A stretch of 64,000 bases of DNA from Isoetes taiwanensis (taxonomy: Eukaryota > Streptophyta > Lycopodiopsida > Isoetales > Isoetaceae): the NCBI GenBank assembly GCA_021234155.1, contig JAJEKV010000001.1, positions 14,062,356-14,126,355 of the forward strand, written 5' to 3'. The position numbers and the translations under genes are program-made. The notes under the pieces were generated by a model. The model ran no database searches, had not been told where the DNA came from, and saw only the letters and a program-made list of their open reading frames with translations. Below, in pieces: positions 31,411 through 64,000 of this stretch (position 1 is the first letter of the stretch; every line of letters begins with the position of its first letter).

Positions 31411-31443
31411 ATCCAAAAAAAGGAGAAAGGGCAAGCAGGGAAG

Positions 31444-42505: not shown

Positions 42506-42507
42506 AT

Positions 42508-42518
42508 TGGTATCGAGC
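42508..42518 (+). promoter_or_regulatory. Copia primer binding site, first copy
   Basis: TGGTATCGAGC corresponds to the tRNA-iMet site TGGTATCAGAGC with the A of CAG missing. The duplicate at 59334 is perfect. Confidence 0.8.
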
Positions 42519-42545
42519 TATAGATCCAAATCACGCTTTGCAATT

Positions 42546-44222
42546 ATGTCAAGTAGATTTGGTGCCAACTTGCTTAGTGTTTGTTGAAGTATTCAAAGGT
42601 GAAGGTGGTTTCCAGATATGGAAACAAAGTATTCGTGGAGGTTCTAGAGTTTGAGAACACAGTGGTATTTGATTGATCCAAACTCGAAGAAACGTGTTGT
42701 TACTAATGTGAGTCTGAGGGGTTAGCCAATGCGAGGAGGAGCTAGTTCTAGCTCAAGCAGGGCTCCACCCGGTTGGTGGAGATGTTGAGGCAGTAGAGGG
42801 AGAGAAAGTGGAAGTGCAACAATTGCAAAACGAGTCCTCAAGTTGATGAAGCTCTCAAGATCAAGGAAGCTCAAGCCATCATTTGTTTGCAAGGTCGAGT
42901 CTTTGTGATTAAACTGAAACTTAGAGGCTTAAGTCCAAGTGATATGTGGGCATACATGATTAAAAATTATGAGGCTAAGACCTCATCACCGCGGATCGAT
43001 GTCTTTGGAGAAACAACTAAGGAAATTAAAATTGCACGAAAAGGATAATATCACAGATTTCCTTGATAAATTTGATTCTATCATAGCAGACTTAGAGGGA
43101 GCAGGTGTGATTTTGAATGAACAGTATCAGCTGCTGGCTATCTCAAGGGCAGTGTCACATAATGCATACTTGGCTACGTTGTTAAGGAATATAGCTAAGA
43201 CTAAAGAGCAGGCAATCCAAATGATACGAACTGAGTTTGAACAAAAGCAAATAAGTCTTGAAGAGGAAGATCAGGCCACTGAGGTTTTGTACACAGGAAA
43301 GTACAAAGGGAAGAAAGAAAATGTTGACAGAATAGGACCTTGCTACAGCTGCAATAATTATGGTCATCTTAAGGCAGACTGCCCCAAGGGGAAAAGGAAA
43401 TCATATGTTACAATTGTGAAGGTAAAGGGCATTTTGCCTTCAAATGTTCTAGTCCAAGGGGACAGAGTTTCAGAGGAAAGGGCAGGGGCAGGGGTAACCG
43501 AGGGGGTGCAAACCTTAAAGCAAAAGGAGCAAACAAGGCAACACCTACCTTAAACCTGACACAAGGGACACAAGGTGATGAAGATGAATAGAATGAAGAC
43601 GAGGAGGTAAGTCTTTCAAAATTATGCCATCTCGTTCATGATGTAAATAATCATAACATGATGATTATAGATTCAGGAGCTGAGAGGACAGTGACATCCT
43701 CTCCACACTTGTTAAAGAATTGCACAAAAACAAAGGGAGGACATGTTCAGCTGGGCAATGGAGATTTGCAAGAGATTGAAGACTCTAGAATTCTTGAACT
43801 CTATGATTTAGATGGGAAGGCAGTCAAACTAGAAGATGTTTTGTGTGTTCCAGGATTAATTAGAAATCTGATTTGGTTCACCAGACTTTGTAGACCTTGG
43901 TTACAAAGTGTTGTTTGAAAAATTACAATGTAAAGTGTTTTTCAACAATCAATTGAAATTTATTGGAAAAAGAGTGGACAATTTGTTTGGTTTAAGCATT
44001 GATCAATGTCTTCCCAGTTTGAATGTTGTAACATGTGCAAATGTCAAAACCTGGCATGAGAGAATGTGTCATGTCAATTCAAAAACGGTGCAGCTTATGT
44101 TGAAAAAGGGGCTGATCAAGGGCACTGAACTAAAGGATGAGCAATTTAAATGTGTAGGATGCCTTTTGGGCAAACACAGACTTCCATTTAAGAAGTCAAC
44201 AAAAAGAGCAAAAGGGGCTTTG
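42546..44222 (+). pseudogene. Ty1/copia gag-protease-pre-integrase, first copy, cut by LTR 2
   Basis: Start MSSRFGANLL. The Gag region includes KLRGLSPSDMWAYMIKNYEA and YLATLLRNIAKTKEQAIQM. Zinc knuckles are CYSCNNYGHLKADC (about 43341-43385) and CYNCEGKGHFAFKC (about 43407-43450). The protease follows with IIDSGAERTV. The pre-integrase HHCC domain reads WHERMCHVNSKTVQ and CVGCLLGKH. The reading ends at KRAKGAL, where chromovirus LTR 2 is inserted. The frame is interrupted near the start (42575), at a TAG at about 43589, and at 43875. Most of these breaks are absent from the second copy and sit at CAG/CTG sites. Confidence 0.9.
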
Positions 44223-45776
44223 TGTGGCGTCCCCTACTGTTATCACGGTGCACTCACAGGTATACAAGCGAGGAGTTCTTCCCCACACCAGCTCCATCGC
44301 GTCTGAGGGCCCTCCACATATCCTTTGCACCCGTAACGAAGTCTACGATTAGGAAGAGTGAAGGTGTCATTCTACCCGTCTCCCTCGGGGCCTACTAGGC
44401 TGCCCGGCGTAAACATACATGTCGTTAGCACATACATCAACATCTGTGACCATCTCGAAGGATGGTCCTCCTCATATCTGCATAGACAAAGATCAGCCAC
44501 ATCACATAGGGGATCCTACCCAAGGCTCGGACTCAAAGGATAACCGGCGGCTTGGGTCTCGAGAGTTCGTTGGTGCATGAATTCATGGCAATGGAATTGG
44601 TGGCATAAGAACATGGCATAGGGTTGTCCACTCCATCCGCCCCTCACATTGCACACTTTGCGGAGTAGGCTGAAAAGTGTTGGGACTATTTGTAGCCAGC
44701 CGGATGCATAGCCAGAAGGGGCTATTCCTGGGGTCTCATCCTCCCGGTTCGAGGGCGGTAGGGATCACTCCCTCCGAGATCTACATGCTAACTCAAGGTG
44801 ACTAGAGGGCCACCGCCTGTATTCGATGAACCCACCTGGAAAGTGTACACCACTTCACGGGTGTCGAGCCCATGCCTTACCGCACTTCGGTGGTAAGCCA
44901 TTAGACCTAGTCACAATGATCCCCGGTGGGCTTTACACACCAGGGGATGGATTAGGAGTCGAACATGAACCTCCTTCTTAGCGGTCGGCCCCTCCACCCC
45001 ACAACCCGGGTGTGGCTCTTGTACCACAGTAGAATCTCGATTGTGCTAGAGAGGCTACTCTAGGAGCATCAACTACAAGCTTTAGGGCCTCTACCCCCTT
45101 CCCAATACAAGGAGTTCCAGGAGATACATCAACCCAATACATCACGGAAGAACTAAAGAACTAGATCTAATCATAGAGTTAGGTTCTTTAGTTAGTGTCC
45201 CAGATCTAAGATCTAGATAGCTGCTATGGGCAATTTAATAGTCTAAACCCTCGATTCTATGATTAGAAGGCGGTTTAAGCTATTAAATTGACCAAATCTG
45301 ATCCTTGAGTGGCTCCTCGACTGAGTTCAACCATCCTGGCGAGCTGATCGAATTAGGGCCGGTATGGCATGGGCTTGGCAGGCGTCACGGGGGCGGTTTT
45401 GGCTCCCAGGGGCAGCCAAAACGAGCTCTAAAACCCTAAGGGCGAAAACTAGCAAGCTAGGGTTTCCTACCCTAAATAGACATGGGGTTTTAGGCTAGGG
45501 TTTCCAATTACCCAATTTGGCATGTGGGATAATTGGAAGGCCCCACTTGCCTTTAGTGGCTAGGTGGCAAAATATGCCAACATGGAAAGGTGTGCCCTCA
45601 TTAATGTGCACATGTGCACATTAATAATATGAACACTCTAGTAAGTTGCCCCCTAGGGCTACTTACACAGCTATCCGTTAGGCATTACCGTCAATCGAGG
45701 TGGCGTGGTATGCAGCGTGGCGTGGGATTACAATGTGCGTCACGGGAGCGTATCTTTTTGTCTTTGGAACGTCACA
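44223..45776 (-). repeat. Chromovirus LTR 2 (3' LTR of the complete element)
   Basis: The ends are TGTGGCGTCCCC on the left and GGAACGTCACA on the right. On the minus strand this is TGTGACGTTCC...CA, the TG/CA form of an LTR. It is preceded (minus strand) by a polypurine tract and followed by the 5-bp CTTTG site. The 26-bp palindrome lies at 45600-45625. Confidence 0.9.
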
Positions 45777-45790
45777 TTCTCCCCACCTTG
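45777..45790 (-). promoter_or_regulatory. Chromovirus polypurine tract
   Basis: The minus strand reads CAAGGTGGGGAGAA immediately before the LTR. It primes plus-strand DNA synthesis. The same tract lies at 62571-62584 beside LTR 4. Confidence 0.8.
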
Positions 45791-46616
45791 AAATGATGTC
45801 TTTGTCCGCGACATCGTGGGTCTCCCACCTTGGGATCTTCCCTAACTTGCACCTACGCAATCAGCGTGATACCTACAATATAATCTTTATACATTTATCC
45901 GCGATTACTCTAAGGTAATTACTTTTAGAACATTATTACGTTATTATATTATGGAATACTTATCAATTCATAACACCATTAACAAGTTATTCACTATGTT
46001 AAGTTAGACAAAATTTCAACATTTCATATCTATAATTCTTGTCAGGGTACTCTTCATTCCTTGCAACACATTCCAACAAAACTTGTGTTTTGCAAGTCTT
46101 ACATCTTCGACCTCCTTGCCCTCCGGATGCTCTCTTGGCTGCAGTCGACACTCGTTAGTCAGTTAATTATTAATTAAAATTTTTGGTTATATGGTGACCA
46201 CCCCACCTATCTACATGAGTGCATGGCTAATCTCCGTAGGAAGAGGATGAATCTTCCATAATGGCCGTGGAGGCAGCCTATATGCCTATATGCCACTCAT
46301 GCCTACACCTCTAGTTGCCCAACAGGAGGATATCCTTCTCGCGTGGGTGAAGAAGGATGGATTCCTCCTATCAAAGCATATATGGGGCTAAAGGTGCTTT
46401 CCCTATCAATGCATTCCTTAATGACCTCTTTTCTCTGGTAGTCTCCTTAGTGGGACGATGATAGACTTTCTAATCTACCTTCCACTGCACCGCCCAGCGG
46501 AAACGCGGTCATGCCTTCATTGACATTACACCAGCCCCTAGAGATCACCGTAGTGGTCTCATCATTCGATGCTTGGCGCATCGCGACCCATACCAAGCAT
46601 AGGTTGCATCGTGGAA

Positions 46617-46973
46617 TTAATCTATACAAGAATTAACCTCATAAAATCGACATGCACGAGCGATTTCTTGGAGATGACCTTGCCGTCCCATTGCTCCATA
46701 AATTGTGGATGCTTGCTTTACTAAATCTTTCTTAAGTACCCACGTGGCGTCTTCCAGCGGTAAAGTTTTCCACTTGACCAAATCTTTGGGAATTCTGATC
46801 TCCTGCGTTTTCTTGAAAGCTTTATCAAGAATCAATGCGGGACTATTTCCAGCTTTTCCTCCGTCATTTCCAACAACGTTGGAGTGTCCAAGACCGTGCG
46901 GATTTGGAGTATGCTTCTTCAACAAACTCACGTGGAAGACCTTATGAATCTTTAGGTGTCTTTGCAAATCCAA
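46617..46973 (-). pseudogene. Integrase C-terminus with chromodomain
   Basis: The block HKVFHVSLLKKHTPNP marks the end of the integrase. The chromodomain follows: LILDKAFKKT, VKWKTLPLEDATWVLKK. The cleaner second copy (63420-63989) reads LVKWKHLPVEDATW. Chromodomains of this type direct integration to chromatin carrying modified histone H3, by family knowledge. The C-terminal tail after LVKQ shows frame damage relative to the other copy. Confidence 0.85.
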
Positions 46974-46979
46974 CTTGTA

Positions 46980-47900
46980 GGATTGATTACCTACTCTCTT
47001 GATTATTACGAAGGGTCCAGCCCACCTTGGAGCAAGCTTCTTGCAATTGCCAATCCCGAGCCGCTGCTTTTACCTTTATCTTGAGCCATACATCATCTCC
47101 AACTTTGAACTCTCCGGTTTGTTCGATGCTTGTCGGCGATGCTCTTGACGACTTCTTTGCTGCTGGCGGTAACCTCGAACTTCTTCCACGAGCTGCTGCA
47201 TATCGGCCAACATCTGGCTTTGCGAAACTTCTACTTTTGACCGCGGGGTTGTGCCAAAATGTGCGGAGTTAGGCAATCGATAGCCATAATTGATCATAAA
47301 TGGCGACATTTGGGGCCGATTCTGCTTGGTGCTATTGTATGCAAACTCCACCAAGTGAATAAATTCTTCCCACATACTTTGCTTATTCGGACATAGTTTC
47401 TTAGCATGTCTTCTAAGATCTGTTGGTCCGCTCCGATGCAGCCGTCCGTCGAGGATGATACGCCCGTGCTCATGGATAGCTTGGTGCGAATCGTTAAAGA
47501 AAGAGGTCTTGCCAAAAGGCACTCATGAACCGGGTCCACAGTGGGAGATAATCTCCCTTGGCATGCCATGAAGCACGAAGATCTCTTTGGTGAAGAGCTT
47601 TCTTTGTATCCATAGGCTGTATCGTGGTCACGCAAGGCACAAAATGTGCCATCTTCGACAACTTGTCGACCACTACCATCAAGGCATCCTTGCCTCTCGC
47701 TGTTCTTGGGAGTCCTGTGATGAAATCCATGCTTTGATGACCTCCCACTTAGCGTTTGGCACGCTAATGGCTCTAATGCCCACGGAATTGAAGCTGCTCC
47801 GCCCTTCGTCTGGCGGGCATAGGCGACATTCCTTGATGTAGCGAGCTATTTGCTTCTTCATTCACGGCCAATAATAGGCTGCTGCGCTTTTTGAAATATG
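46980..47900 (-). pseudogene. Chromovirus integrase, zinc finger and catalytic core
   Basis: The zinc-binding part (ARYIKECRLC) is at about 47860-47680. The core shows [20 protein letters not shown] with the first Asp, then [13 protein letters not shown], and further on WEEFIHLVEFAYNSTKQ. Several frame changes occur, for example near 47500 and 47680. The piece at 47522-47076 ends in the basic region after the core. Confidence 0.85.
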
Positions 47901-47975
47901 TTTTCATGAATCCATGACCCGGCTATTGGGCTTTGTGCGTGTCATGGAGGATCAACTTCCTTACACCCTGATGAT

Positions 47976-49450
47976 TCAGTTCGCTGATAACTTGTTCTTA
48001 TGGTATAACGGGTTGCCTTCCTTCTTATAATGCTTGAAGGCCTCCCGCTCTTTATCTGTTCTAGCCTCCTTAGAGAGGCTTGCCCATACTTCCCTGAAAT
48101 CCACATCCGTTGGCAAGGACTCTTCAATCTTCTTACCAAAGTCGCTGGAGAGCGTCGAAATTGCATTGCAATGCACTCTAGTTGTCAGGGGATGCCTTGA
48201 AAGCGCATCTGCTACCACATTGAGCTTCCGGCTTGTAGACTATATCAAAGTCATATTCTTGAGGAACTCCATCCATCTCCGTTGCCTCGGATTAAAGGTG
48301 TGGTTGCGTGAATACATATTGGAGCTCGATGATGGTGGTATCAATTGGAACTTCCTTCCCAAGAGATAGTGCCTCCATATTCTTAATGCCACTGACAACC
48401 CCAAGCAATTCACAGTGCGTCGCGTTGGGTAGCGCGTCTCGGCGTCGTTCATCTTTCTGGAATCATACACGCTACCACACGCTCTTCTTGCATAAACCTT
48501 TGCTGTAGCTATCTTACTGCATCTGTTGCTACAAGCTTATCTTTCTCGAGAGTCCGGCAAGGTCAAGGCAGTATGTCGTCGAGCTTCTTTCAACAATTCA
48601 AACCCCTTTTGGGCTTTCTTGTGCCAATGCTCTACCCGGTCTTTCACCTTCTACGCCCTCGTCGGTCTGTTAATCCGGGCTGCTATCTTAGCAAAGTTCT
48701 TCACGAACTTCTGTAGTACCACAACTAGGCCAGAAAACTTGACCTCGTGCACATTCTTGGCCCGCCCTTTGAATTCTTGCTTCAATCTTGGCGGGGTCGT
48801 CGAGATGCCTTCTGCTGAGATCACATGACCAAGGTATTCCACCTTCTCCGTTGCGAAGTGGCACTTCGACAACTTGGCGTACAACTGGTGCCTCTTCAAC
48901 TTCTCTAGCACCCTTCTCAAGTGTTGCACGTGTTCTTCAAGGGATCTGCTATACACCAAAATGTCATCAAAGAAAACAATCACAAAGGTGTCGAGGAACT
49001 CCCTGAAGATATCGTTCATGAGCCTCATGAACGTTGCGGGGGCATTTGATAAGCCGAAAGGCATCACCGTGAACTCATAATGCCCATCACCAGCGTCACG
49101 AAGGCGGTCTTGTGGATATCTTCCTCCTTTATCCGTATCGATGATAACGACCTTAAATTCGATTTTGGAGAAGATCTTTGCTCCTTGAAGCTGATCCATC
49201 AAGTCGTCGATCTTGGAAGCGCATACTTGTTCTTAATGGTGTGCTTATTCAACATGCGTAGTCTATGCATCCTCAAAGATCCATCCTTCTTCTTGACAAA
49301 AAGAATGGGCTCAAACGGCGGAGACACTAGGTCTAATGAAACCTAGGTCGAGCAGCTCCTGCAAATTACTTCTTGACTCCGACAACTCCTGCGTTGTCAT
49401 TCTATATGGAGCCTTGCTTGTAGGCTTTGTTCCCGGTTCGAGTGCTATCT
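47976..49450 (-). pseudogene. Chromovirus reverse transcriptase and RNase H
   Basis: The N-terminal RT is at about 49330-49200 ([26 protein letters not shown]). The main part reads YEFTVMPFGLSNAPATFMRL and the catalytic FFDDILVYSRS, then CHFATEKVEYLGHVISAEGI. RNase H is degraded at 48470-48240. VADALSRHP at 48218 marks its end. The frame breaks lie mostly beside CTG/CAG. Confidence 0.88.
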
Positions 49451-49735: not shown

Positions 49736-50041
49736 TTAAAACTTTCCACAATCAATAATGGCCCTGCTGGTCCAAGGTACTCCATACCTATTATCAAGTC
49801 GTACTTGCCAATGCCCATTACTTACGCCCCCATCCCCGGATCTTAATCCCGGCAAGTCGATGTCAAAGTTGATTCTTTTTACTGCGATGCGCCTTCTTGC
49901 TCCACTTGCTAAGACAACGGGCCTTGGCTTTGACTTTAATGGTTTCAACTTCAACATTTGAACCGATACGGGAGATGCAAAGTTATGGCTACTTCCCGAA
50001 TCTATCAGGACTATAAATGACTTGGCCTTGGCCTTTCCCAC
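49736..50041 (-). pseudogene. Chromovirus aspartic protease
   Basis: SFIVLIDSGSSHNFAS holds the catalytic D-S/T-G and the SHNF stretch typical of chromovirus proteases. After about 50 codons the frame shifts (GGVSNGHW), so the C-terminal end is in another frame. Confidence 0.85.
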
Positions 50042-50049
50042 TGTGGAAA

Positions 50050-51437
50050 TTACTTTATACTGGCTCTCTGCTTGCTCTGTATCTATTGCGGCAAAGATAT
50101 GACACTCACCCTGAATGTAGTCGCGGGCCTCCTCGCCCGTCGTCGTCGATCAAAGTGTCCCAATCTCCCAACTCATTGTATTTTGCACTCATGACATATG
50201 GGCGGTTTGTTCTATGGCACATTTGGCTGGAAACACCTAAAGCAAAGGCGCTTTTCTATGCACTCTGTCTCTTCTCCTTGGGCATGGCACGAAGGATCGC
50301 CGCGGCTTTGGAGTAGTTTGACCCTTCTGTTTGTCTTTGAAGGATACACCGCTTCTTCTCCTGCTTTGCTTCCCTTGATTGCCACTATATGGGGCTCTAG
50401 CTGGTCTGGGGCACGTTCTCGGTGAGCTGAAGCTGCCACGCGCCTTTATCTTAGTATCTTTGCGCCTCGCCGCTATTAGAGGTCTGTTCGCTTGCAAACT
50501 TATTGCCTTGGACTCAGCTTTCGTCTTTGTTCTCCGGGTTTATTGCCCTTACAAACTTAAGGATCTCCTCGTTCGGGGCCTTCAATGTAGCTTTCCAGCT
50601 GCGTGCTTCTCACCTAACTTTGGCACATCTGACCTTAGCCTCATAAATTCCTCAGGTGTATTTACGTCTGATTTGTTGCCTTGCTTCTTTAACACGTAAA
50701 TTCTTTGCATCATCTTTGGACTTGTGTTCTCTTGGGACGTAATGGCGGAAGGCTTTAGCAAACTTCTTGAACACTGCAAGCATCCACAGCAAGCCATGAG
50801 CCTTGGCATAGCCCTTCCACCAAATGCGTCTTTGCTCCCTCAGGGTTATTTGCCACCACTGCCTTTATCCTTATCCTTCATACCATAGGCATTGCGTGTG
50901 TCGCTCATCTCGTCAAGCCAAGCCTCTTGCCTCCATGCGACCTGTTCTCGCTTTGAGAATTGCTTTCGAGCTTCACGGCCTTCAAACATTTCCCAATGCA
51001 GAGTCTACTTTCTTCTGATAGTCAGAGGTTCTTGTGTCCCTTTGTCGTCCGTCCGGGTGGTTCCTCTGCCTTTCGTCTGCTCGGACTTGGTTCTGCTCTT
51101 CTTCTTCCTCAGAATCGGAGTCTGAATCTGAGCTTGAGTCGGAGGAGTCCGAGCTGGGGGACCTTCCTCTCTTGCTCCTCTTCTTGTCTCTACCTGTTCT
51201 CCGAGCTGATGCTTGCGGCAGTTGAGCGTTACCCACCGAACCTGCTCCTGCTTGTGCGGCTAGCAAAGCCTTTATCTGCTCGAGGTCCGTCCTCATTTGC
51301 GATATTTCTTCTTCTGGGGTCATTTGTCCAAATTCTTCAAGCAGGTTCCTTGCCGGGCGTGGCCTGGGCGGGCTCTGTTCCCCTGTAAGTTCCCGCAGTT
51401 GTCGTTCTCCTGCGCTCAGGCCTCTAGCTGCATACAC
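50050..51437 (-). pseudogene. Chromovirus gag, capsid and zinc-binding part
   Basis: It starts with MYAARGLSAGERQ. A short coiled-coil-like segment (EEISQMRTDLEQIKALLAAQ) is followed by a basic RSKRGRS stretch and a Ser/Asp/Glu run (SSDSSDSSSDSDSDSEEEEE). The downstream part (VNTPEEFMRLRSDVPKLG) and a Cys/His region (CFRCFQPN, then CHEC) near 50170-50260 suggest nucleocapsid. Frame changes occur at several points. Confidence 0.7.
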
Positions 51438-51439
51438 AA

Positions 51440-53135
51440 GTGATTCATATCTACATGGTTAGTTTTCCTTGCTTTCTTGCATTATTTATGTTTGTTGGCA
51501 TGGTTGAGGGGACACAAAATATATCAACAAAACATTTATAGTGCCAGAGAATGTTATATTTATATTTTATATTACACTAATACAAGAACTTGCAACTCAT
51601 CGCTAATCATTTACATTGATGCGGTAAAGATGGATTATCCTCCAAGAACTTTTTCACTTGGGCTGTTCCCCTTTGAATGGCCCAAGTTCCTAAGAACATT
51701 GGCTGGAGATCCACCCTGTAATGCTCTTGCTAAATCTTCTATTCTGCGGTGGGAGGTATAAGGCCAGCATCAGCGTCTTACTGCCGCTGTAAGGTATGGC
51801 GAAGTCGAAGGCGCCGAGTGCTACCGCTCTTTTCACCGGGATTGCATACTTTCGGTGTTAAGGGGGTAGCCGTGCATGCCGGCGAATCTGAGTGCAATCA
51901 GCAGCGATACTCCTTCCTGCCTCCTCACGGGGGTGAACTTGCGGTGGATAACCGCTATTCTTCCATCCATCGGCTGATGGCGGTAATAAGCGTAGTGACT
52001 GGTTCGCGAGACGGGTCCTCGGCCACTTTCGGTATCCAGCTCGTAATGCGCTTCCCAAAATCATCAACCTCCACCGTGGTGAGCTCCCCTCAGAGTCCCC
52101 GGCTCTTGCTGAAGCCCTCGAGGTCGAATTAGCTGTCCTATCGAGGGGAGGTCTTTGGCTTGCGGAATGCTTGCCGTTAGGATGTTTGAGGTCGCATATA
52201 GCGGATCCCCATCTGTTCACGAAGAGCAAGGAACTCTTCCTCCGTCGGTAGCTTGTTCTGCCTTATGCGCCTCCATAATCTGCCTGATATTCTTTGTAGG
52301 CTTGGATGTCGGAGGTAAACTCTCCGTGTAAGTGTCGGGCTTCCCTTACTTGGAGGGGGAAGTCGGACTCTCCTCGACGATGAAGTCGTCCAAGTGCATT
52401 CTTGAGTTGGTGCAGCAACTCTTCGTCTCATTACTCCCTTTCCACGCATTCCGGAGGTTTTGAATGTAAACAGGGCAAACTCCTCACCTTCGATTATAAT
52501 GGGAGCTAGGCTTGTGATGCCTAACCCAAGGGGTGGCGCGACTCGAGAGTCTGCCGACTTCTTTGAAGTCTTGCCACTCCTGCTCTGCTTGTCGCCCGCT
52601 CCTCCGCTGGGTCGGGCTTCGACATCGTCTTCCCTCCTCCTCGGGTTCTGTTCATCGAGTCTTCTTCCTTCCCTTCACCTCCTGTTCATCTTGTGTGAGG
52701 GCCGGATTGTTCTATGCTATGGCTAATGGGTCCACGTCCATGGGGAATGGAGGTTTCCCCGGTGTTCTCGACGTACGGTGGGGTGAGAAAGATTGCCCGG
52801 CGGTGTTGAAAGAAAGTACTTGGTCCTGTTGTGATTAGGACCATTGGCTCGGTGTCTGGTCGCTTTGTTTGTGAGGTATTTGGCGATGTTCGGGACATCG
52901 TCTATCTTTGCCGAGGACTGCCTAGGAACAAAATATCCTACACAAGGGGGAGTTGCACTAAGCGGGTTCTACCCTAGCTTGAAACTTCGGTCGGGACTCT
53001 ACTATAAGCTGGGGTCGCGTGCAAGGTTGCTTGGACGTCTACCTCCTTCCTGAAGATCCGGAAGATTTGGTCGACGTCGGCCTCAGCAGCATGAGCGCTG
53101 GCGCTGTACCATCTCTGGAAATCAGAAGTTGCCAT
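51440..53135 (-). pseudogene. Extended N-terminal gag or separate ORF of unknown function
   Basis: A methionine at 53135 opens MATSDFQRWYSASAHAAEAD. Coding-like blocks continue in shifting frames: VPNIAKYLTNKATRHRANG near 52890, ELLHQLKNALGRLHRRGESD near 52400, and FTPVRRQEGVSLLIALRFAG near 51890. The region lies between the H3-like ORF and gag proper. I do not recognise a domain. Its length (~1.7 kb) is extra for a chromovirus. Confidence 0.5.
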
Positions 53136-53448
53136 TGATTAATTGCAGAAGAGGGTAACAAACGGTTGCAAGAGCGCCTCAGGGAGTTGGGAAATCGGCT
53201 AGAAGGGCAGGAGCAGATTTGTAGGGTGCTATCTGAGAAGTGAGGGGTCTATTTATAGAAAAGGGGAAAACCCTAATTTTTGGATGACTTGAAAAATTTC
53301 CTAGGATTGGGTAATTCTAACTTATCTGAGGTTAAAATAGGAGTTTGAGGACTATAGGAGATGCTTGAACAAGGCTAGGTTACCTTAAAGATGCTATGCA
53401 GTAGGTTGAAGGTGACTTTGACAAGTCCTGGTGAAGAATTGGTAAGAG

Positions 53449-53716
53449 GTCTCACAGACTTAGCCTCGCTTCAAAACTAACTTTTTTTTTTCGCGACGGT
53501 AGGTTTGTGAGACATCATCTCATTTCGATCAAAAGATGTCCAACTTGGGTAAACTAATGGTGTAAGGGTGATGGGCTCATCAAATTAGGCGCAGAATCGA
53601 CCCCTTATTTGGTCAATTTGGAGCTGTTTTGGTCAAGCTTGAAGGTCTCACGGCTTTTTAGCATACCTCGCTTCAATACTAACTTTTTGTTTTGCGACGA
53701 GGCGCGAGCTGTGAGA
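53449..53716 (-). repeat. Leader inverted-repeat motif, downstream pair
   Basis: Two copies (53449-53513 and 53644-53716) share the core CCTCGCTTCAA-ACTAACTTTTT. They are bounded by GGTCTCAC on one side and GTGAGAC on the other, so each could fold into a hairpin. They lie before the ORF starting at 53135. Confidence 0.8.
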
Positions 53717-53880
53717 CATCATGTCTCTCGGCTCCCAAATGTCCTATTCCACTGAAATAAAAGCTAAAACTTATTAATTTGCTCTAATTACCCAAGTTTA
53801 TGTCATCAAGGTACACAAAATTGCTCTATATTACAAAATTTTTAATTATTTACAACAAAAGTTTCTAAGATGCGTTCTCC

Positions 53881-55119
53881 TTATAATGGGGTCGCAAGAC
53901 TCATGTCTTGTCGCATTAAGGTTACCCGCTTGGCGTGGATAGTGCAGGCTGTTGAATCTTCAAAATGTTGTACTATCTTTGCCTCAGCCGCCTCTTGCAT
54001 TGCCAGCAGCGCCTCGTCCGTGACTCTAAAGTCTGTTCTGTAGGCCTGCATCACTTCACGCACCAACCGAGCGAAGGGGGCACGGGGGATTAGGAGACCG
54101 AAGCTGCGCTGGAAGTGTCTAATCTCCCTTAACGCTCTTCTCTCCACCTCTTTCCTATCAGCTTTCTTCCTGGGTGGCGGCTTAGGAACCTTGGGCTTCG
54201 GTGGTGGCGGCCTTAAGGTTTGCTGCTTCGTTGGTCGCCCTCCCTCGATGAACCTAACCCTGTTTTCTTCATAATATTGGTTGTAGGCCTCCCATTTCTT
54301 CATGTAGGCCTCGTGCTCTCTCATCTTCCTCTCGTAGATCTTCACCCACATCGGTGGCGTAGGCTTCGAGGGCGGTCGTGGTTCTTTCTTTCTATCCCAT
54401 CATGCGGTATTTTCGGGGGCTTACGCACTTGGTCTGCTTTGGGGTTGCTTTCAGTCTTTGGCTGCTCGGGTGCTTCTGTTAAAATTAGCTGGGTGCTTGG
54501 AAAAACTTCCACCTGCAACATTAGGGTCGAAGTCCTCCTCGAAGAAGAGTCGTCGGAGGGGTTTGGGGGTTCGTCGGGTTCTTGCGCTCCTTGATGATAA
54601 TATTGGGGTTCGGCCTCTTCCTTGGCGGGCGTCCTTAGTTCTCCTTATGCGATACGAACTTCCCTTTCTCTTTCTTCTTTTCTTCTTTGCTGCCTTTTGT
54701 TCCTCTTCCTTCCTTTTCCTCTTCTTGTCTTCCCTTTTCTTACGCTTTCGTACTTTCGATGAACCTTCTAAGGTCTGCTACCTCCGCAGCTCCGGACACA
54801 TCACACCCCATCTGCTTTCGAGGATTTCGGTGGGTCGCGTCTGAATGAATCCTTGTTCTACCTTTCTTGGATCTCCGGCTCTATTTCTTCATACACCTCC
54901 CTCGTCTCCTCGTCCATGGAGTTTGGTGATGTGGCCTCGTCTGCTCACACTTTCTTTGGTTGAAGCCCTCGATCGGATCGGACGTGTCTTGCTCCTCGTC
55001 CGTGACGTCCCCCTCGCGAGCCTCTCCGCGAAGCATCATCGAATTATCTCCGCCTCGGTTAAAGGCCTGGTGGCTTCGCTGGGCGGCGCTTCCTTCTTGG
55101 TCTGTTTGGTTCGGGCCAT
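53881..55119 (-). CDS. Retrotransposon-encoded histone H3-like protein (frameshifted as read)
   Basis: The ATG at 55119 opens [20 protein letters not shown], the canonical H3 tail start with K4. An in-frame TGA occurs at codon 28. Further frames give acidic blocks ([30 protein letters not shown]) and a lysine/arginine block (about 54740-54660, [20 protein letters not shown]). From 54351 the frame is open to the stop at 53881. It has a coil-like [19 protein letters not shown], a proline-rich [13 protein letters not shown], then an ungapped H3 core at about 54138-53890: [55 protein letters not shown]. By eye about 47 of 81 core residues match canonical plant H3. K115, C110, H113 and the arginines at 49, 52, 69, 72, 83 and 116 are kept. 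K56, K64 and K79 are Arg and K122 is Gln. The usual C-terminal RRIRGERA is absent. Loop 1 has canonical H3 length, unlike CENH3. Confidence 0.85.
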
Positions 55120-55331
55120 GCTTCTGGGATCGTCAATCGGATAAAAGCGTAGAGATCGCCTAAGTTGGGAAGAAGCCCGGATTTCTAGGGCTTGGACGAA
55201 AAAAAATGAGGGGTTCTACATCTATTTATAGCTTGTGGAATTTTAGGTCAAAACTCAAGTTGCTTTCGCTTAACATGCTAAGGCACCAAATTATCTAAAA
55301 CTTATACTTATTTCGGACTTTTCCTACCTAT

Positions 55332-55592
55332 TGGTCTCCACGGCTTAGCCTCGTTCCAATACTAATGTTTAGTTTTTCGACCACGGTATGGAAATGTGAG
55401 ATCTCATACATTTCTAGGGTTTTAGGTAATCAAAACATGCTATTCTAACTAATTCCTACCTTAGAATTAGCCTTACCATATTATTTTCTCCAATTCATCA
55501 TGTTTTGGTGTTCTTGACTCGATGTCTCCACGACTTGCCTCGCTTCAAAACTAACTTTTTGTTTTTGACCGGTCAGCGCGTAATGTGAGACC
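55332..55592 (-). repeat. Leader inverted-repeat motif, upstream pair
   Basis: Two copies (about 55332-55401 and 55522-55592) of the same hairpin-forming motif as at 53449-53716. They lie between the 5' LTR and the H3-like ORF. Confidence 0.8.
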
Positions 55593-55778
55593 ACCTCACT
55601 TGGGAAAATTTTGGCTCATTCTTTTAATCTTGTTAAATTCCAATTCACTTAATTGTTACTAGCTTAGCATAAACTACAAAGGTGAGAAAAAATTTTCCCA
55701 CTTTTCGAGGCTTGAGGATCCTATCAAGTTAGTACTAAAACATGGTCGAGTGCTTTGCTCTTGGTCTCCAAGAACATT

Positions 55779-55789
55779 GCTCGATACCA
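55779..55789 (-). promoter_or_regulatory. Chromovirus primer binding site
   Basis: The minus strand reads TGGTATCGAGC directly after the 5' LTR. This is the tRNA-iMet site TGGTATCAGAGC lacking one A at CAG. Confidence 0.8.
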
Positions 55790-57350
55790 CGTACGTCCCC
55801 TACTGGAGTATGCGGTGCTCTCACCAGTATACAAGCGAGGAGTTCTTCCCCACACCAGCTCCATCGCGTCTGGGGCCCTCCACATATCCTGTGCGCACCT
55901 GTAACGAGTCCCAGTGGGAAGAGTGAAGGTGTCATTCTACCCCGTCTCCCTCGGGGCCTACCTAGGCTGCGAAGCGTAAACATACATGTCGGTGCCAGCG
56001 AGAATCCTCCATCCACCCGGAGGGGTGGTATATCAACATCTGCATAGGCGATTGGGTCAGCATCACATGGGGATCCTACCCAAGGCTCGGACTCAAGGGG
56101 GTGATTTTGGCTTGGGTCTCGAGTTCATTGCAGGCCAAATTCATGGCAATGGATTTGGGCTGGCATAAGAACATGGCATAGGGTTGTCCACTCCATCCCT
56201 CCCCTCCCCACACTTTGCGAGTAGGTCAAAAAGTGTCGGGACAGAGTTCGGATGCATAGCGAAGGGGGCTATTCTCTGGTCTCATCCTCCTGGTCCCGAG
56301 GGGGCAGGTAGGTATCACTCCCTCCGAGAGATCTACATGCTAACTCAAGGTGACTAGAGGGCCACCGCCTTGATTTGCGAACCCACCGGAAAGTGTACAC
56401 CACTTCACGGTGTCGAGCCCATGCCTTACCCGCACTCGGTGGTAAGCCATTAGACCTAGTCACAATGATCCCCATTAGGCTTTACACACCGAGGGGATGG
56501 CTCAAGAGTCGAGGACATGAACCTCCTTCTTAGCCCGGCCTGGCCCCTTCACCCACAACCCGTGGTGTGGCTCTTGTACCGCAGGCGAATCTACAGGTGT
56601 GCTAGAGAGGCTACTCTAGGAGCATCAACTACAAGCTTTAGGGCCTCTACCCCCTTCCCAATACAAGGAGTTCCGCGAGAGATACATCATCCAAATACAT
56701 CACGGAAAGAACTAAAGAACTAGATCTAATCATAGAGTTAGGTTCTTTAGTTAGTGTCCTAGAGATCTAAGATCTAGATAGCTACTATGGGCAATTTAAT
56801 AGTCTAAACCCACTGATTCTATGACTAGAAGACGGTTTAAGCTATTAAATTGACCAAATACCTGATCCTTGAGTGGCTCCTCCTGACCTGAGTTCAACCA
56901 TCCCTGGCCGAAATGATCGAATTCGTGGGAACTGATGGCGCAATTAAACCGGGCAAAGGGGGAGGCGGTTTTGGCTCTTGGGGCAGCCAAAACTGAGCTC
57001 TAAAACCCTAAGGACGAAAAACTAGCAAGCTAGGGTTTTCCTACCCTAAATAGACATGGGGGTTTAGGCTAGGGTTTCCAATTACCCAATTTGGCATGTG
57101 GGATAATTGGAAAGGCCCCACTTGCCTTTAATGGCTAGGTGGCAAAATATGCCAACATGGAAAGGTGTGCCCTCATTAATGTGCACATGTGCACATTAAT
57201 AATATATGAACACTCCTAGCAAGTTGCCCCTAGGGCTACTTACCTGGCTATCCGTTGGCGTACACGTCAGTCGGAGTGGCGTGTACGCTGCGTGTGAGCG
57301 ATCTAAAGATACGCCTTGGGGACCGTGATATCGTGTCTTTGAACGTCACA
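55790..57350 (-). repeat. Chromovirus LTR 3 (5' LTR of the complete element)
   Basis: It matches LTR 2 over its whole length and lies next to the primer site. It is followed on the right by the same copia sequence that follows LTR 1, so it is the recombinant boundary of the tandem duplication. The palindrome lies at 57175-57200. Confidence 0.9.
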
Positions 57351-59332
57351 TTCGTGAGGAGAATCACTCCTAATATAACTAATTCATAATTGTCAATCAA
57401 TATTACGCTGAGTTTCTTTCCAAAGAGTATAATGCACCGCTTTGCAATTGCTAGAAATATAAATAACTAACTCAGATTCAATTAACAATTGAGCACACAA
57501 TCGATTTTCATATATTCCCAAACAAGGCAAGATACAATATATGCTTCAGATTTTCTGAGCAATTCTAGAACCTGTAAGAAGGTATACAACTATAAGACTA
57601 AATTTCTGGAATTTGCAATTGTGTCCAGCATTGAACATAAGTCCTGGAGTTTGCAGATACACCTGACAATTTCAACTTACACTCTGTTTGTGTATACTGT
57701 GGTTCTAAATAATAGGAAGCCATACAAGGAGAACCTCATGCATCAAATATGCACAGTTATTCTGAGCAGTTCAAGAAACCTGAAATTTGTGTTCAATGCT
57801 GAATGTACCTCTGGAATTACAGTTATTGGTTGCCCTTAATGAACTTGTTTTGCTCAGCTCATATCCTGCTGCAATCCAGAGTAAATCGTCCTGGAGAACC
57901 TCTGCCCTTAGAAAAAAAATATTGTCTCCTTGTTTCAATCAAGGAAAACCTGTCACAAGGAAAACCTGACTGTTTTTAATTCTGATAAAATGCTGCTGAT
58001 CTTCGTCTTAAATATAGTGCTAACAATGTGAAGAGATGCTGAAAAAATTGGTTCAATGATCTGACCTGCAAGAAGCCGACCTGTTTTTCTTCTTCTGCCT
58101 CCTTTTTGTAATTCCTCCCTTCCTTCTATTTCTCCTATTAGATTGGGATCTTTGCCACGGGGATAGATTATGGGAAGCGGTGAGGCAAGCGATGGATGGA
58201 TGATCGGCAAGGCATGATTCAAGGGAATGCAGATACAGAAGCGGTAGAACGTATGATTTCCGCAAACTGAGGTTTATTAGTTATTAAATACTCACGTAAC
58301 TGAACAAGAAATCTTTTAACTTGTCCGATTTCCAGTAGACAAAAAATGTTTAGGGTTCTTTGAACCGTAAAAAAACGTCATGGCTTTCTCCCCCCTTTTT
58401 ATTTTTTTTTAGGCTATAAAATTCATATTTTTTTCCTTGTGTGCCCATATTTCAAATGATAGCCATATAGAACAATATCTAGAACAATTGGGTATGCCAT
58501 TGCCATATGTGGATGGATTCAGCAGTAGTAGTCAGGGAAATTAGAACCTTTTCTTTGTGTGCCTATTCCAAGTGATAGCCATATAGAACAATTGGGTATG
58601 TCGTTGTCATGTGGAGCACAATAAATCTGGGATGGGTTCATCATAGTCAGGGAAATTAGAACAAGGAAACAGCCAGCTAACCATGTGCTGAAGGAAAGAT
58701 AATCAGAGCATAGGAAAATAGCATGTTTTGGATGACTGAATGTGTTTTTATCAGAAGACCTATATATTATACAGGGATCTAAGGTTGCACAGTATATGAA
58801 GGTGCAGAGACATGTGAACCTGATACTTAACCTAGGTTGCAGAAGGTGCATTATTATTGTGCATAGGGTCAGAATTCCCTAAGGTCGAAATAAGGAAATC
58901 TAAGGCGTATGGTTAATGGTTCGATAAAAAGCCAGTGGTTAACCCATGATATATTTGGCGGTCAAATGCTGTTTAAACAGCTAGCAAGTGACCAAGTTAG
59001 AAACGAGAAGCTTGAGGCAAATCTGGTGCCGGATCAATTTGGATCGGTGCCGAGTAAACTAAGGATAAGAAGGATTGTAATTGTGTGATATTTTGAACTG
59101 TGAAAATTGTGCCGGATCCATAAGTTTATGGATGCCAGGGCTGTCGGGGTAAGATAGTTTATGCCAATGAATGCCGATTCATAAAATATTGCTACAGTGC
59201 TCAAATATTGTATTTCAATGGTTTAAGTTTTTCATTTGGGCTAAAGTTGTAATAAACTTTGTGTAAGATGTGATAAGAATTGAGGAAAGGAAATTAGATT
59301 TTGATTGATCTATTTCTAACCAAATTCTATCA
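57351..59332 (+). repeat. Ty1/copia 5' LTR, second copy
   Basis: Repeats 40509-42505. Nearly all differences lie at CAG or CTG sites. It ends ...CTATCA before the primer site. Confidence 0.75.
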
Positions 59333-59333
59333 G

Positions 59334-59345
59334 TGGTATCAGAGC
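59334..59345 (+). promoter_or_regulatory. Copia primer binding site, second copy
   Basis: Perfect TGGTATCAGAGC, the tRNA-iMet complement used by plant copia elements. Confidence 0.92.
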
Positions 59346-59371
59346 TATAGATCCAAATCACAGTTGCAATT

Positions 59372-61029
59372 ATGTCAAGTAGATTTGGTGCCAACTTGCT
59401 TAGTGCTGTTGAAGTATTCAAAGGTGAAGGTGGTTTCCAGATATGGAAACAAAGTATTCAGGAGGTTCTAGAGTTTGAGAACCTGTGGTATTTGATTGAT
59501 CCAAACTCAGTAAAACGTGTTGTTACTAATGTGAGTGCAGGGTTAGCCAATGCAGGAGGAGCTAGTTCTAGCTCAAGCAGAGAGGGCTCCACAGTTGGTG
59601 GAGATGTTGAGACGAGTAGAGGGAGAGAAAGTGGAAGTGCAACAATTGCAACGAGTCCTCAAGTTGATGAAGCTCTCAAGATCAAGGAAGCTCAAGCCAT
59701 CATTTGCTGCAAGGTCAGTGCTGTGATTAAACTGAAACTTAGAGGCTTAAGTCCAAGTGATATGTGGGCATATATGATTAAAAATTATGAGGCTAAGACC
59801 TCATCACAGATCGATGTGCTGGAGAAACAATTAAGGAAATTAAAATTGCACGAAAAGGATAATATCACAGATTTCCTTGATAAATTTGATTCTATCATAG
59901 CAGACTTAGAGGGAGCAGGTGTGATTTTGAATGAACAGTATCAGCTGCTGGCTATCTCAAGGGCAGTGTCACATAATGCATACTTGGCTACGTTGTTAAG
60001 GAATATAGCTAAGACTAAAGAGCAGGCAATCCAAATGATACGAACTGAGTTTGAACAAAAGCAAATAAGTCTTGAAGAGGAAGATCAAAGCACCCAGGTT
60101 TTGTACGAGGAAAGTACAAAGGAAGAAAGAAAATGTTGATGAGAATAGGACCTTGCTACATGCAATAATTATGGTCATCTTAAGGCGATCGCCCCAAGGG
60201 AAAAGGAAATCATATGTTACAATTGAAGGTAAAGGGCATTTTGCCTTCAAAATGTTCTAGTCCAAGGGGACCGGTTTGAGGAGGAAAGGGCAGGGCCAGG
60301 GGTAACCGAGGGGGTGCAAACCTTAAAGCAAAAGGAGCAAACAAGGCAACACCTACCTTAAACTCCCTAAGGGACACAAGGTGATGAAGATGAATGTAAT
60401 GAAGATGAGGAGGTAAGTCTTTCAAAATTATGCCATCTCGTTCATGATGTAAATAATCATAACATGATGATTATAGATTCAGAGTCGAGGACAAAGGACA
60501 TCCTCTCCACACTTGTTAAAGAATTGTACTAAAACAAAGGGAGGACATGTTCAGCTGGGCAATGGAGATTTACAAGAGATTAAAGACTCTAGAATTCTTG
60601 AACTCTATGATTTGGATGGGAAGGCAGTCAAACTAGAAGATGTTTTGTGTGTTCCAGGATTAATTAGAAATCTGATTTCGGTCTGTCAGCTTGTAGACCT
60701 TGGTTACAAAGTGTTGTTTGAAAAATTACAATGTAAAGTGTTTTTCAACAATCAATTGAAATTTATTGGAAAAAGAGTGGACAATTTGTTTGGTTTAAGC
60801 ATTGATCAATGTCTTCCCAGTTTGAATGTTGTAACATGTGCAAATGTCAAAACCTGGCATGAGAGAATGTGTCATGTCAATTCAAAAACGGTGCAGCTTA
60901 TGTTGAAAAAGGGGCTGATCAAGGGCACTGAACTAAAGGATGAGCAATTTAAATGTGTAGGATGCCTTTTGGGCAAACACACGAGACTTCCATTTAAGAA
61001 GTCAACAAAAAGAGCAAAAGGGGCTTTGT
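59372..61029 (+). pseudogene. Ty1/copia gag-protease-pre-integrase, second copy, cut by LTR 4
   Basis: The cleaner copy. MSSRFGANLLSAVEVFKGEG opens a 255-codon Gag frame to 60139. The zinc knuckle region follows with small indels (60150-60260). The protease DSG is damaged near 60480 (DSES). The block from 60513 is open through the pre-integrase domain (LISVCQLVDLGYKVLF, WHERMCHVNSKTVQ, CVGCLLGKHTRLPFKKS). It stops at the LTR 4 insertion. RT and RNase H of this element are not in the window. Confidence 0.9.
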
Positions 61030-62570
61030 GTGACGTCCCCTACTCGTATACGGTGCACTCACCGTATACAAACAGGAGTTCTTCCCCCACACCAGCTCCA
61101 TGCTGATACAGGGCCCTCCACATATCACTGCACCCGTAACGAGTCTCAGTGGGAAGAGTGAAGGTGTCATTCTACCCCGTCTCCCTCAGGGCCTACCTAG
61201 CTGCGGAAGCGTAAACATACATGTCAGTAGCACATACATCAACATCCTGTGACCATCTCGAAGGATGGTCCTCCTCATATCTGCATAGACAAAGATCAGC
61301 ACATCACATAGGGGATCCTACCCAAGGCTCGACTCAAAGGATAACCGACGGCTTGGGTCTCGAGTTCAGTTCTTGTGCATGTAATTCATGGCAATGGAAT
61401 TGGCGGCATAAGAACATGGCATAGGGTTGTCCACTCCATCCGCCCCTCCCCTGCACACTTTGCAAGTAGGCTGAAAAGTGTTGGGACTTTGATCAGAGCA
61501 GCCGGATGCATAGCCAAGGGCTATTCCCGGGTCTCATCCTCCCGGTTCCGAGGGCGGTAGGGATCACCCCTCCAGAGATCTACATGCTAACTCAAGGTGA
61601 CTAGAGGGCCACCGCCCGTATTCGATGAACCCACCGGAAAGTGTACACCACTTCACTTATGTCGAGCCCATGCCTTTACCCCCTTTCGGTGGTAAGCCAT
61701 TAGACCTAGTCACAATGATCCCTGGTAGGCTTTACACACCGGGGGATCGCTTGAGTCGAACATGAACCTCCTTCTTAGCCGGTCCTGGCCCCTCCACCCA
61801 CAACCGTGTGGCTCTTGTACACCAGCCGAATCTACAAAGCAGTGCTAGAGAGGCTACTCTAGGAGCATCAACTACAAGCTTTAGGGCCTCTACCCCCCTT
61901 CCCAATACAAGGAGTTCACAGAGATACATCAACCCAATACATCACAGAAGAACTAAAGAACTAGATCTAATCATAGAGTTAGGTTCTTTAGTTAGTGTCC
62001 GAGATCTAAGATCTAGATAGCTGCTATGGGCAATTTAATAGTCTAAACCCTCACGATTCTATGATTAGAAGACGGTTTAAGCTATTAAATTGACCAAATA
62101 CCTGATCCTTGAGTGGCTCCTCCTGACCTGAGTTCAACCATCCTGCTGAGCTGATCGAATTCGGGGAAACTGATGGCGCATTAAGCGGCACGGGGGCGGT
62201 TTTGGCTCCTGGGGCAGCCAAAACTGAGCTCTAAAACCCTAAGGACGAAAACTAGCAAGCTAGGGTTTTCCTACCCTAAATAGACATGGGGGTTTAGGCT
62301 AGGGTTTCCAATTACCCAATTTGGCATGTGGGATAATTGGAAAGGCCCCACTTGCCTTTAGTGGCTAGGTGGCAAAATATGCCAACATGGAAAGGTGTGC
62401 CCTCATTAATGTGCACATGTGCACATTAATAATATATGAACACTCTAGTAAGTTGCCCCTAGGGCTACTTACCGGCTATCCGGCATTACCGTCAATCGGG
62501 TGGCGTGTACGTGGCGTGGCAAAGACAATGTACGCCCCGGAGCGATATCTCGTGTCTTTGGAACGTCACA
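61030..62570 (-). repeat. Chromovirus LTR 4
   Basis: TGTGACGTCCCC at the left, GAACGTCACA at the right, preceded by CTTTG (61025-61029) as at LTR 2. It is the counterpart of LTR 2 in the second tandem unit. The palindrome lies at 62405-62430. Confidence 0.9.
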
Positions 62571-64000
62571 TTCTCCCCACCTTGAAATGATCTTTGTCCG
62601 GCATGACGTGGGTCTCCCCACCTTGGGATCTTTCCTAACTTTGCACCCCGCAATCAACGTGATACCTACAATATAATCTTTATACATTTATCACGATTAC
62701 TCTAAGGTAATTACTTTTAGAACATTATTACGTTATTATATTATGGAATACTTATCAATTCATAACACCATTAACAAGTTATTCACTATGTTAAGTTAGA
62801 CAAAATTTCAACATTTCATATCTATAATTCTCGTCCGAGGTACTTTTCATTCCTTGCAACACATTCCAACAAAACTTGTGTTGCAAGTCTTGAGCTTCGA
62901 CCTCCTTGCCCTCCGGAGCTCCTCACTGGCTGCAGTCGACACTCACGTTAGTACCGATTAATTATTAATTAAAATTTTTGGTTATATGGTGACCACCCCA
63001 CCTATCTACATGAGTGCATGGCTAATCTCGGTAGGAAGAGGATGAATCTTCCATAATGGCCGTGGAGACAAAAGCCTATATGCCTATATGCCACTCATGC
63101 CTACACCTCTAGTTGCCCAACAGGAGGATATCCTTCGGCGTGGGGCGTGAAGGATGGATTCCTCCTATCAAAGCATATATGGGGCTAAAGGTGCTTTCCC
63201 TATCAATGCATTCCTTAATGACCTCTTTTCTCTCGAGGCCAGTCTCCTTAGTGGAGACCAGTAGACTTTCTAATCCTACCTTCCACTTTCGCCCAAGCGG
63301 AACGCTTGCGGTCATGCCTTCATTGACATTACACCCGCGCCCTAGAGATCACCGTAGTGGTCTCATCATGATAAATAAGATGCACCCATACCAAGCATAG
63401 GTTGCATCGCGAGATTAATCTATACAAGAATTAACCTCATGGAAATCGACATGCACGAGCGATTTCTTGGAGATGACCTTGTCGTCCCATTGCTCCATAA
63501 ATTGTGGGTACCTTTTACTAAATCTTTCTTAAGTACCCACGTGGCGTCTTCCACTGGTAAGTGTTTCCACTTGACCAAATACTGGAGGAATTCTGATCTC
63601 CTCGTTTTCTTGAAAGCTTTATCAAGAATCAATTCTGGGACTATTTCCAGCTGTTCCTCCGTCATTTCCAACAACGTTGGAGTGTCCAAGACTTCGTCTG
63701 GATTTGGAGTATGCTTCTTCAACAAACTCACGTGGAAGACCTTATGAATCTTTAGGTGTGCTGGCAAATCCAACTTGTAGGATTGATTACCTACTCTCTT
63801 GATTATTCTGAAGGGTCCAGCCCACCTTGGAGCAAGCTTCTTGCAATTCCCAATCTCGAGCCGCTGCTTTACCTTGATCTTGAGCCAAACATCATCTCCA
63901 ACTTTGAACTCTCTTCTGCTTCGATGCTTATCGGCGATGCTCTTTTGTCGACTTCTTGCTGCTAGCAGATACCCTCGAACCTCTTCCACGAGCTGCTGCA
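62571..64000 (-). mobile_element. Second chromovirus copy, 3' end only
   Basis: Polypurine tract, 3' UTR and integrase C-terminus with chromodomain, running off the window. It duplicates 45777-47180. Its H3-like ORF, if present, would lie outside to the right. Confidence 0.88.
63420..63989 (-). pseudogene. Integrase C-terminal region and chromodomain, second copy
   Basis: One open frame of 189 codons: KVGDDVWLKIKVKQRLEIGN, APRWAGPFRIIKRVGNQSYK, LPAHLKIHKVFHVSLLKKHT, and the chromodomain with LVKWKHLPVEDATW. The N-terminal side continues beyond the window. It gives the best reading of the damaged stretch at 46617-47100. Confidence 0.88.

Follow-up and report, generated by a model that had tools for sequence, protein, structure and literature searches.

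An H3-Like Gene in an Old Chromovirus Copy

The window, i.e., the whole 64,000-nucleotide stretch of Isoetes taiwanensis DNA analyzed here, contains on its minus strand a chromovirus with an H3-like gene, a further gene termed ORF2, and the remains of gag and pol (Table 1). The element displays the chromovirus traits of an LTR pair, a primer binding site (PBS), and a polypurine tract, and the PBS is close to the initiator-Met tRNA site. The K2P distance between the two LTRs is 0.175, which marks the insertion as old. In natural copies of the element, Retrotrans_gag and Ty3_capsid were matched in L015 and L028, and RT_RNaseH, Integrase_H2C2, and rve in L028, where gag, protease, reverse transcriptase (RT), RNase H, and integrase follow in this order within a single open frame of 1361 codons; gag of the window copy begins near 51.4 kb.

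Table 1. Coordinates of the H3-carrying element and its parts within the window, listed from the 5' LTR to the 3' LTR.
Feature	Position	Strand	Basis or remark
5' LTR	55793..57353	-	Self-BLAST
Primer binding site TGGTATCGAGCAATG	55775..55789	-	Sequence just after LTR end, read by eye
Leader of H3 gene, two shared-motif copies	55151..55591	-	Local alignment, motif count
TATAAATA box ahead of H3 gene	55223..55230	-	Sequence
H3-like gene, MARTKQT through core to GER	53872..55119	-	7 in-frame stops, tblastn frame reading
Helical segment and proline-rich linker ahead of H3 core	54141..54351	-	Helix predicted at residues 2-35
H3 histone-fold core	53893..54138	-	Pfam, PDB, tblastn, Foldseek
Leader of ORF2, homologous to H3 leader, two shared-motif copies	53190..53717	-	Local alignment
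TATAAATA box ahead of ORF2	53250..53257	-	Sequence
ORF2, between H3 and gag, broken here	51600..53136	-	Downstream limit approximate; ATG 53136
First part of gag, contains MTPEEEISQMRTDLEQIKALLAAQ	50982..51437	-	Same stretch near start of natural gag ORFs
Aspartic protease fragment	49736..50041	-	Pfam Asp_protease_2 19.2 bits, under cut-off; RVP_2 in L015 and L028
Reverse transcriptase fragment	48651..49202	-	Pfam RVT_1 3.7e-25
RNase H and integrase region, broken	46974..48500	-	DNA matches in 15/20 natural copies
Chromodomain-encoding integrase end, decayed	46617..46973	-	Pfam Chromo 22.3 bits, cut-off 25.1
3' LTR	44227..45778	-	Self-BLAST; purine-rich AAGGTGGGGAG ahead of LTR, read by eye

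An H3 histone fold is present in the element gene. In agreement with the original prediction of an H3-like product, the ORF at 53881-54351(-) matches the Pfam Histone profile (2.6e-28; 99.2 bits, cut-off 26.4), and a sequence search with it retrieved H3 chains from the PDB (7.1e-25). The gap-free alignment to the H3 fold that had been read from the sequence was reproduced by tblastn of canonical H3 against the window, with 55.7% identity over 88 residues, no gaps, and an E-value of 6e-27. The predicted structure of the ORF (mean pLDDT 74, pTM 0.38) has helices at residues 66-82, 90-103, 112-139, and 147-153, and all 50 Foldseek matches listed for it are nucleosome, octamer, or tetrasome chains. 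The helical segment ahead of the core is also seen in natural copies; this segment and its linker have no Pfam match.

The gene itself is longer than this ORF. MARTKQT, the N-terminus of H3, is encoded at 55119 in the same frame as the core and 328 codons ahead of it, and GER follows in the same frame beyond the stop that closes the ORF. The gene therefore occupies about 55119-53872, and its N-terminal part is very long. Seven in-frame stops lie in 53878-55119, six ahead of the core and the seventh where the core ends, so the window copy is unable to make the H3-like protein. This copy of the element is old, broken, and dead.

According to the original prediction, the gene was situated between the 5' LTR and gag; it does lie after the 5' LTR, but the adjoining gene is ORF2, which is open over 512 codons in L015 (L015:3208-4743) and has neither a Pfam match above cut-off nor a convincing one in the PDB. 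The leaders of the two genes are homologous: 55591-55332 aligns with 53717-53447 at a score of 78 (best of 50 shuffles, 32), and 55231-55151 aligns with 53258-53190 at a score of 30, which alone is not above the shuffle best of 32 (n=50). The motif GTTAGTWTTGAAGCGAGGC, with up to 3 mismatches, has 4 matches in the window against 0.03 expected. These four copies, two per leader (53440-53722 and 55328-55596), are flanked by GTCTCACA- and GTGAGAC-like arms. Of the four hairpin folds in the leaders, one is conspicuous at z -3.6, against -1.7, -1.4, and -0.4 for the rest, and an Rfam search of the whole window gave no match.

Among the 19 natural copies L010-L028, the TATAAATA box is found ahead of H3 in 17, ahead of ORF2 in 17, and ahead of both in 16. 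Where a start codon was found, the box precedes it by 104-121 bp (H3) or 122 bp (ORF2, two copies), and elsewhere on the same strand it occurs 0-2 times per 9-kb stretch. By its sequence, TATAAATA is a TATA box, conserved before the element H3 gene.

The window has further repeats. Positions 38957-47200 and 55794-64000 are two copies of 8.2-8.4 kb, 91% identical and 16.8 kb apart (self-BLAST), each made up of an LTR, a 3.7-kb flank, an LTR, and the start of the interior; the pair is a large tandem duplication that includes element and flank, and copia-like coding sequence was read by eye on the plus strand of the flank. GC-rich tandem repeats with units of ~1.1 kb, most ~78-83% identical, extend over 18039-24936 and have no Rfam match. 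Candidates read by eye at 576-2579, 13535-14485, and 28000-31434 are the remains of another Ty3/gypsy element, a multicopper-oxidase-like exon, and a LINE.

Recurrence of the H3 Gene Across the Genome

A genome-wide search with the 156-aa ORF returned 10,803 first-look candidates, the best 150 of which were scored, all with E <1e-76. The degenerate 26-base core motif of family 1, to which the window element belongs, is matched exactly at 1,219 places in the genome, a count of matches and not of individually inspected copies, and at 0 in the reversed control. Twenty natural copies, all chosen as having H3, were taken down the search ranking. The second leader and ORF2/gag DNA lie downstream of H3 in 20/20 of them, LTR and PBS DNA lies upstream in 18/20 (not L018 and L024), and RT DNA lies downstream in 16/20 (not L013, L022, L024, and L027). 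L024 (G000:C1032:11099177-11108176) has three tandem H3 units in one element copy, with a piece of the second leader after each.

Sampling was also performed in reverse, starting from RT matches and taking the DNA 3.8-6.8 kb upstream of RT at 16 places; two RT copies were passed over as their H3 was already in the H3-search set. An H3 or a piece of one is present (E <1e-6) in 14 of the 16 stretches, with fragments or decayed genes in L037, L040, L044, L045, and L050. Element DNA is absent from the L043 stretch, and L052 has the LTR, the PBS, and parts of both leaders with no H3.

A one-off insertion of H3, which would leave the gene absent from other copies of this chromovirus, is rejected by the 1,219 motif matches, by the same place in 20/20 copies, and by the 14/16 sampled through RT. 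The recurrent copies and the repeated gene order likewise reject a host gene caught by chance between LTRs. A chromovirus lineage of Isoetes taiwanensis has H3 as an established gene of its own, placed after the 5' LTR and ahead of ORF2-gag-pol; that the gene belongs to the chromovirus, as originally proposed, is borne out by its copies, its place, and the purifying selection described below.

A Related Family with a Near-Canonical H3

A plant CENH3 query against the same genome gave 7,706 candidates, and the 150 scored included host H3 and long-framed H3s unlike those of family 1. A second, related Ty3/gypsy family carries a near-canonical H3 in the same position. Its H3 genes in L031, L032, and L033 are open over 438, 458, and 452 codons, and their cores are 87-88% identical to canonical H3; the N-terminal part is unrelated to that of family 1 and has no ARTKQT start. 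In L031, H3 is followed by ORF2, gag (Ty3_capsid), RT, RNase H, and integrase. RT DNA is present in L032, together with integrase DNA, and in L033, with ORF2-like frames read by eye. In long matches, the RT DNA of family 2 is 69-74% identical to that of the window, and the ORF2 proteins of the two families are homologous (22% identity, E 9e-12). ORF2 is a second extra gene of ~480-510 codons, common to both families (L031:3538-4980). The family 2 core motif has 772 exact genome matches and 0 in the reversed control, and also matches L035, L036, and L060, a sister type referred to as family 3.

Selection, Gene Form and Conserved Residues

The histone core of the element H3 is under purifying selection across diverged copies. 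Pairwise dN/dS of the core (NG86) has a median of 0.076 in family 1 (182/190 pairs, median dS 0.84; 20 rows out of the 28 that were usable once a frameshifted unit had been omitted) and of 0.025 in family 2/3 (67/105 pairs, 15 copies). The RT-sampled genes, termed family 1b, gave 0.058 (22/28 pairs) for 8 of 14 H3s, in 4 of which an in-frame stop was skipped. For comparison, the RT value is 0.051 (10-90% range 0.025-0.249; 13/15 pairs) at 6 of 19 loci, only those with long gap-free matches, and H3 in the same six loci has 0.068 (14/15 pairs). The part ahead of the core has 0.135 with a wide spread of 0.065-0.857 (166/190 pairs). Median dS across these sets is 0.46-0.87, near saturation, with pairs that are non-independent; the family 1 and 2 sets, found by H3 match, are biased towards intact cores, and decay after insertion pushes the dN/dS values up.

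Open frames of family 1, taken from stop to stop, reach 493 codons and have at least 400 codons in 50 of the best 150 copies; such frames do not have the length of canonical H3 (short tail, ~136 aa). Complete genes from MARTKQTARK to GERP are open over 404 (L007), 429 (L011), and 444 (L022) codons. With L002 and L009 counted as one, L001-L028 make up 27 distinct family 1 copies. Of these, 14 have an exact MARTKQTARK, which is in frame with the core in 7 of the 14; a variant occurs in 7 more, and no such start was found in 6.

Relative to the host H3 of L034, which is 97.8% identical to the canonical reference, 34/92 core positions are identical across all 44 rows compared (29 of family 1 including 1b, 15 of family 2/3; L001, L008, L024_2, and 11 of 14 RT-sampled H3s were left out of the count). 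The invariant residues include R69, R72, R83, C110, H113, K115, D123, and I130. In nucleosome structures R69, R72, and R83 are DNA-contact arginines, and some of C110, H113, D123, and I130 are chaperone contacts; many of the kept core residues are H3-H4, H3-H3', and DNA contacts. In family 1, K53, R63, K64, and R131 are altered in every row, R63 always to P or S, and K56 is altered in nearly all.

The Chromodomain

The chromodomain claimed for the element scores clearly in L063, one of the natural copies reached through RT, which provides the family 1 evidence (Pfam Chromo 43.6 bits), but stays under threshold in the window copy (22.3 against 25.1 bits). In L063 the domain reads ELILDKAF...YLVKWKHLPVEDATW. 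When the HP1 cage positions are mapped onto it, a single aromatic residue of the three that form the cage is kept, and the domain in this respect resembles type II chromodomains. With two of the three missing, the cage residues do not support the proposal that this chromodomain reads modified H3. According to PMC6317226, the binding partner of type II chromodomains has not been identified.

Origin of the Element H3

Family 1 H3s form one clade in the tree (100/99) and family 2/3 H3s another (100/98). The element genes share the fold with plant CENH3 and canonical H3, with CENH3-like residues in family 1 and a near-canonical core in family 2; unlike those host genes, they are element-borne, have frames of up to 493 codons in family 1, and form clades of their own.

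It is possible, though less likely than not, that family 1 H3 derives from plant CENH3 and not from canonical H3, or that families 1 and 2 captured their genes separately. The tree places family 1 next to plant CENH3 with weak support (80/55) and family 2/3 next to host canonical H3 (88/45). Of 18 diagnostic positions, defined on 5 plant CENH3s, family 1 is CENH3-like at 9, H3-like at 2, and neither at 7. Constraining family 1 to plant CENH3 is not rejected (p-AU 0.35 and 0.45), and constraint to canonical H3 gives p-AU 0.044 with the window copy alone and 0.06 with 11 element rows. A CENH3 origin is at odds with loop 1 of the window H3, which has canonical length and aligns gap-free with canonical H3 where plant CENH3s are longer, with the canonical-like C-terminus and, in family 1, N-terminus, and with the greater number of canonical residues in family 1b. 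Such an origin looked likely from the window copy alone and appears weaker with 11 element rows and the canonical-like termini and loop 1. Separate capture has to contend with a single clade of all element H3s that is not rejected (p-AU 0.096), and with the shared gene order and the homologous ORF2 and RT of both families. The shared gene order favors a single capture, made by a common ancestor, after which family 1 changed fast; two captures would be compatible with the tree as well.

Possible Role of an Element-Encoded H3

Plants silence retrotransposons largely through marks on histone H3, one of the proteins that DNA wraps around. Considering the conserved fold, we hypothesize, at roughly even odds (about 50%), that the element-made H3 variant pairs with host H4, enters nucleosomes on element DNA, and keeps their chromatin accessible. 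That the product marks, packages, or de-silences element DNA, as originally proposed, is likewise hypothetical. Dimerization with host H4 is suggested by the fold and by the many H3-H4, H3-H3', and DNA contact residues that are kept. The product would then go into nucleosomes on or near element DNA, and its altered or replaced tail, devoid of most sites for host silencing marks, would leave the chromatin open to expression or integration. Since the fold is all that the two families have in common, the main function would lie there, and the N-terminal parts may act as family-specific adaptors. Nucleosomes with family 1 H3, if any, may be weak, given the changes at K53, K56, R63, K64, and R131. 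A purely mark-less histone fits poorly with K4 and K9 in exact H3 context in 14/27 family 1 copies, and L052, with LTR, PBS, and leader parts but no H3, suggests that the gene may be dispensable in cis. The wider proposition, that in both Ty3/gypsy families the H3 variants take the place of host H3 in element chromatin and thereby escape or divert histone-based silencing, is more speculative and would be somewhat less probable.

Two other roles are each unlikely to a similar degree. The histone could be deposited at chosen places and tether the integrase or pre-integration complex, as a self-made landing mark; the lineage has a chromodomain (L063) and 14/27 family 1 copies offer ARTKQTARK with its K9 context, but that chromodomain is without two of three cage residues and family 2 has no ARTKQT start. 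Alternatively, the soluble protein could titrate H4, histone chaperones, or H3-modifying enzymes and weaken silencing in trans. The exact H3 N-terminus of family 1 and the conserved C110, H113, D123, and I130, some of them chaperone contacts, would suit such a decoy, which as a tail mimic would not need the entire fold that is kept, including the DNA-contact residues R69, R72, and R83.

Condensation of element RNA or cDNA by the histone, in virus-like particles or the pre-integration complex, is less probable still: the long N-terminal part with a histone fold and the gene's place ahead of gag fit it, but gag has zinc-knuckle-like matches of its own, albeit under Pfam cut-offs, and the H3 gene's own TATA box suggests separate expression. 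A captured host H3 hitch-hiking without function, for which the broken window copy and the H3-less L052 might speak, is largely refuted and very improbable, as the median dN/dS values (0.025-0.076, with median dS between 0.46 and 0.87) resemble that of RT in the same elements.

If the proposed entry into nucleosomes is true, retrotransposons making their own nucleosomes would be the equivalent, in chromatin, of the anti-silencing systems of viruses, and the element might have a hand in shaping the very chromatin by which it is normally silenced. With a lineage that keeps its own H3 gene, one can ask directly whether the contest waged by transposons extends to the nucleosome itself, and the element H3s constitute a natural library of H3 variants evolving outside the extreme constraint on host H3.

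Comparison with Known Systems

In fungi, namely Pyrenophora tritici-repentis and the Mycosphaerellaceae, H3-like genes (H3L) are described in hAT DNA transposons (PMC3538342, PMC6710886). As here, a transposable element carries an H3-like gene in many copies; according to the same papers, extra H3L copies in Mycosphaerellaceae are RIP-inactivated and those of P. tritici-repentis are almost identical and recent. In contrast, the carrier in Isoetes is a plant LTR retrotransposon whose diverged copies are under purifying selection and whose H3 genes have long N-terminal parts and TATA boxes. An H3L-carrying hAT transposon, with terminal inverted repeats and hAT transposase, was ruled out as carrier, which is an LTR element with gag-pol.

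A fixed extra host-type ORF in a plant Ty3/gypsy lineage is likewise described for Phalaenopsis, where an AlkB (2-ODD) ORF has demonstrated in vitro activity; that ORF is an RNA demethylase, as opposed to the histone found here (PMC9289625). The screen of 121 angiosperm genomes in that paper lists 15 extra domains, and its section 12 text names no histone. Plant chromoviruses, as outlined in PMC6317226 and PMC3350952, share with the Isoetes element the LTR, PBS, gag, protease, RT, RNase H, integrase, and chromodomain; unlike them, it has an H3 gene and ORF2 ahead of gag. The terms 'additional ORF', 'extra ORF', and 'upstream of gag' do not occur in PMC6317226, and the main texts of PMC6431247, PMC5408684, and PMC8282616 contain no word beginning 'histone'. 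No histone gene in an LTR retrotransposon was found in searches of the open-licence literature, outside of which most subscription papers and preprints lie, and priority is unproven.

A protein database search retrieved no close relative of the element H3, the highest identity being 63% among 108 matches listed; further searches had a best score of 73 bits in one case and no close relative among the best 120 of 7,563 matches in another. Among viral contigs, neither the window ORF nor P0146, one of the cluster proteins from ENA contigs, had a relative. Those clusters (P0112, P0121, P0138, and P0145-P0148) have 5-121 members and consist of H3-domain proteins of 255-711 aa. In the six cluster proteins inspected, the H3 core is at the end, and P0146 and P0148 begin with MARTKQTARK; further multicopy long-tailed H3s may exist outside the Isoetes taiwanensis genome.
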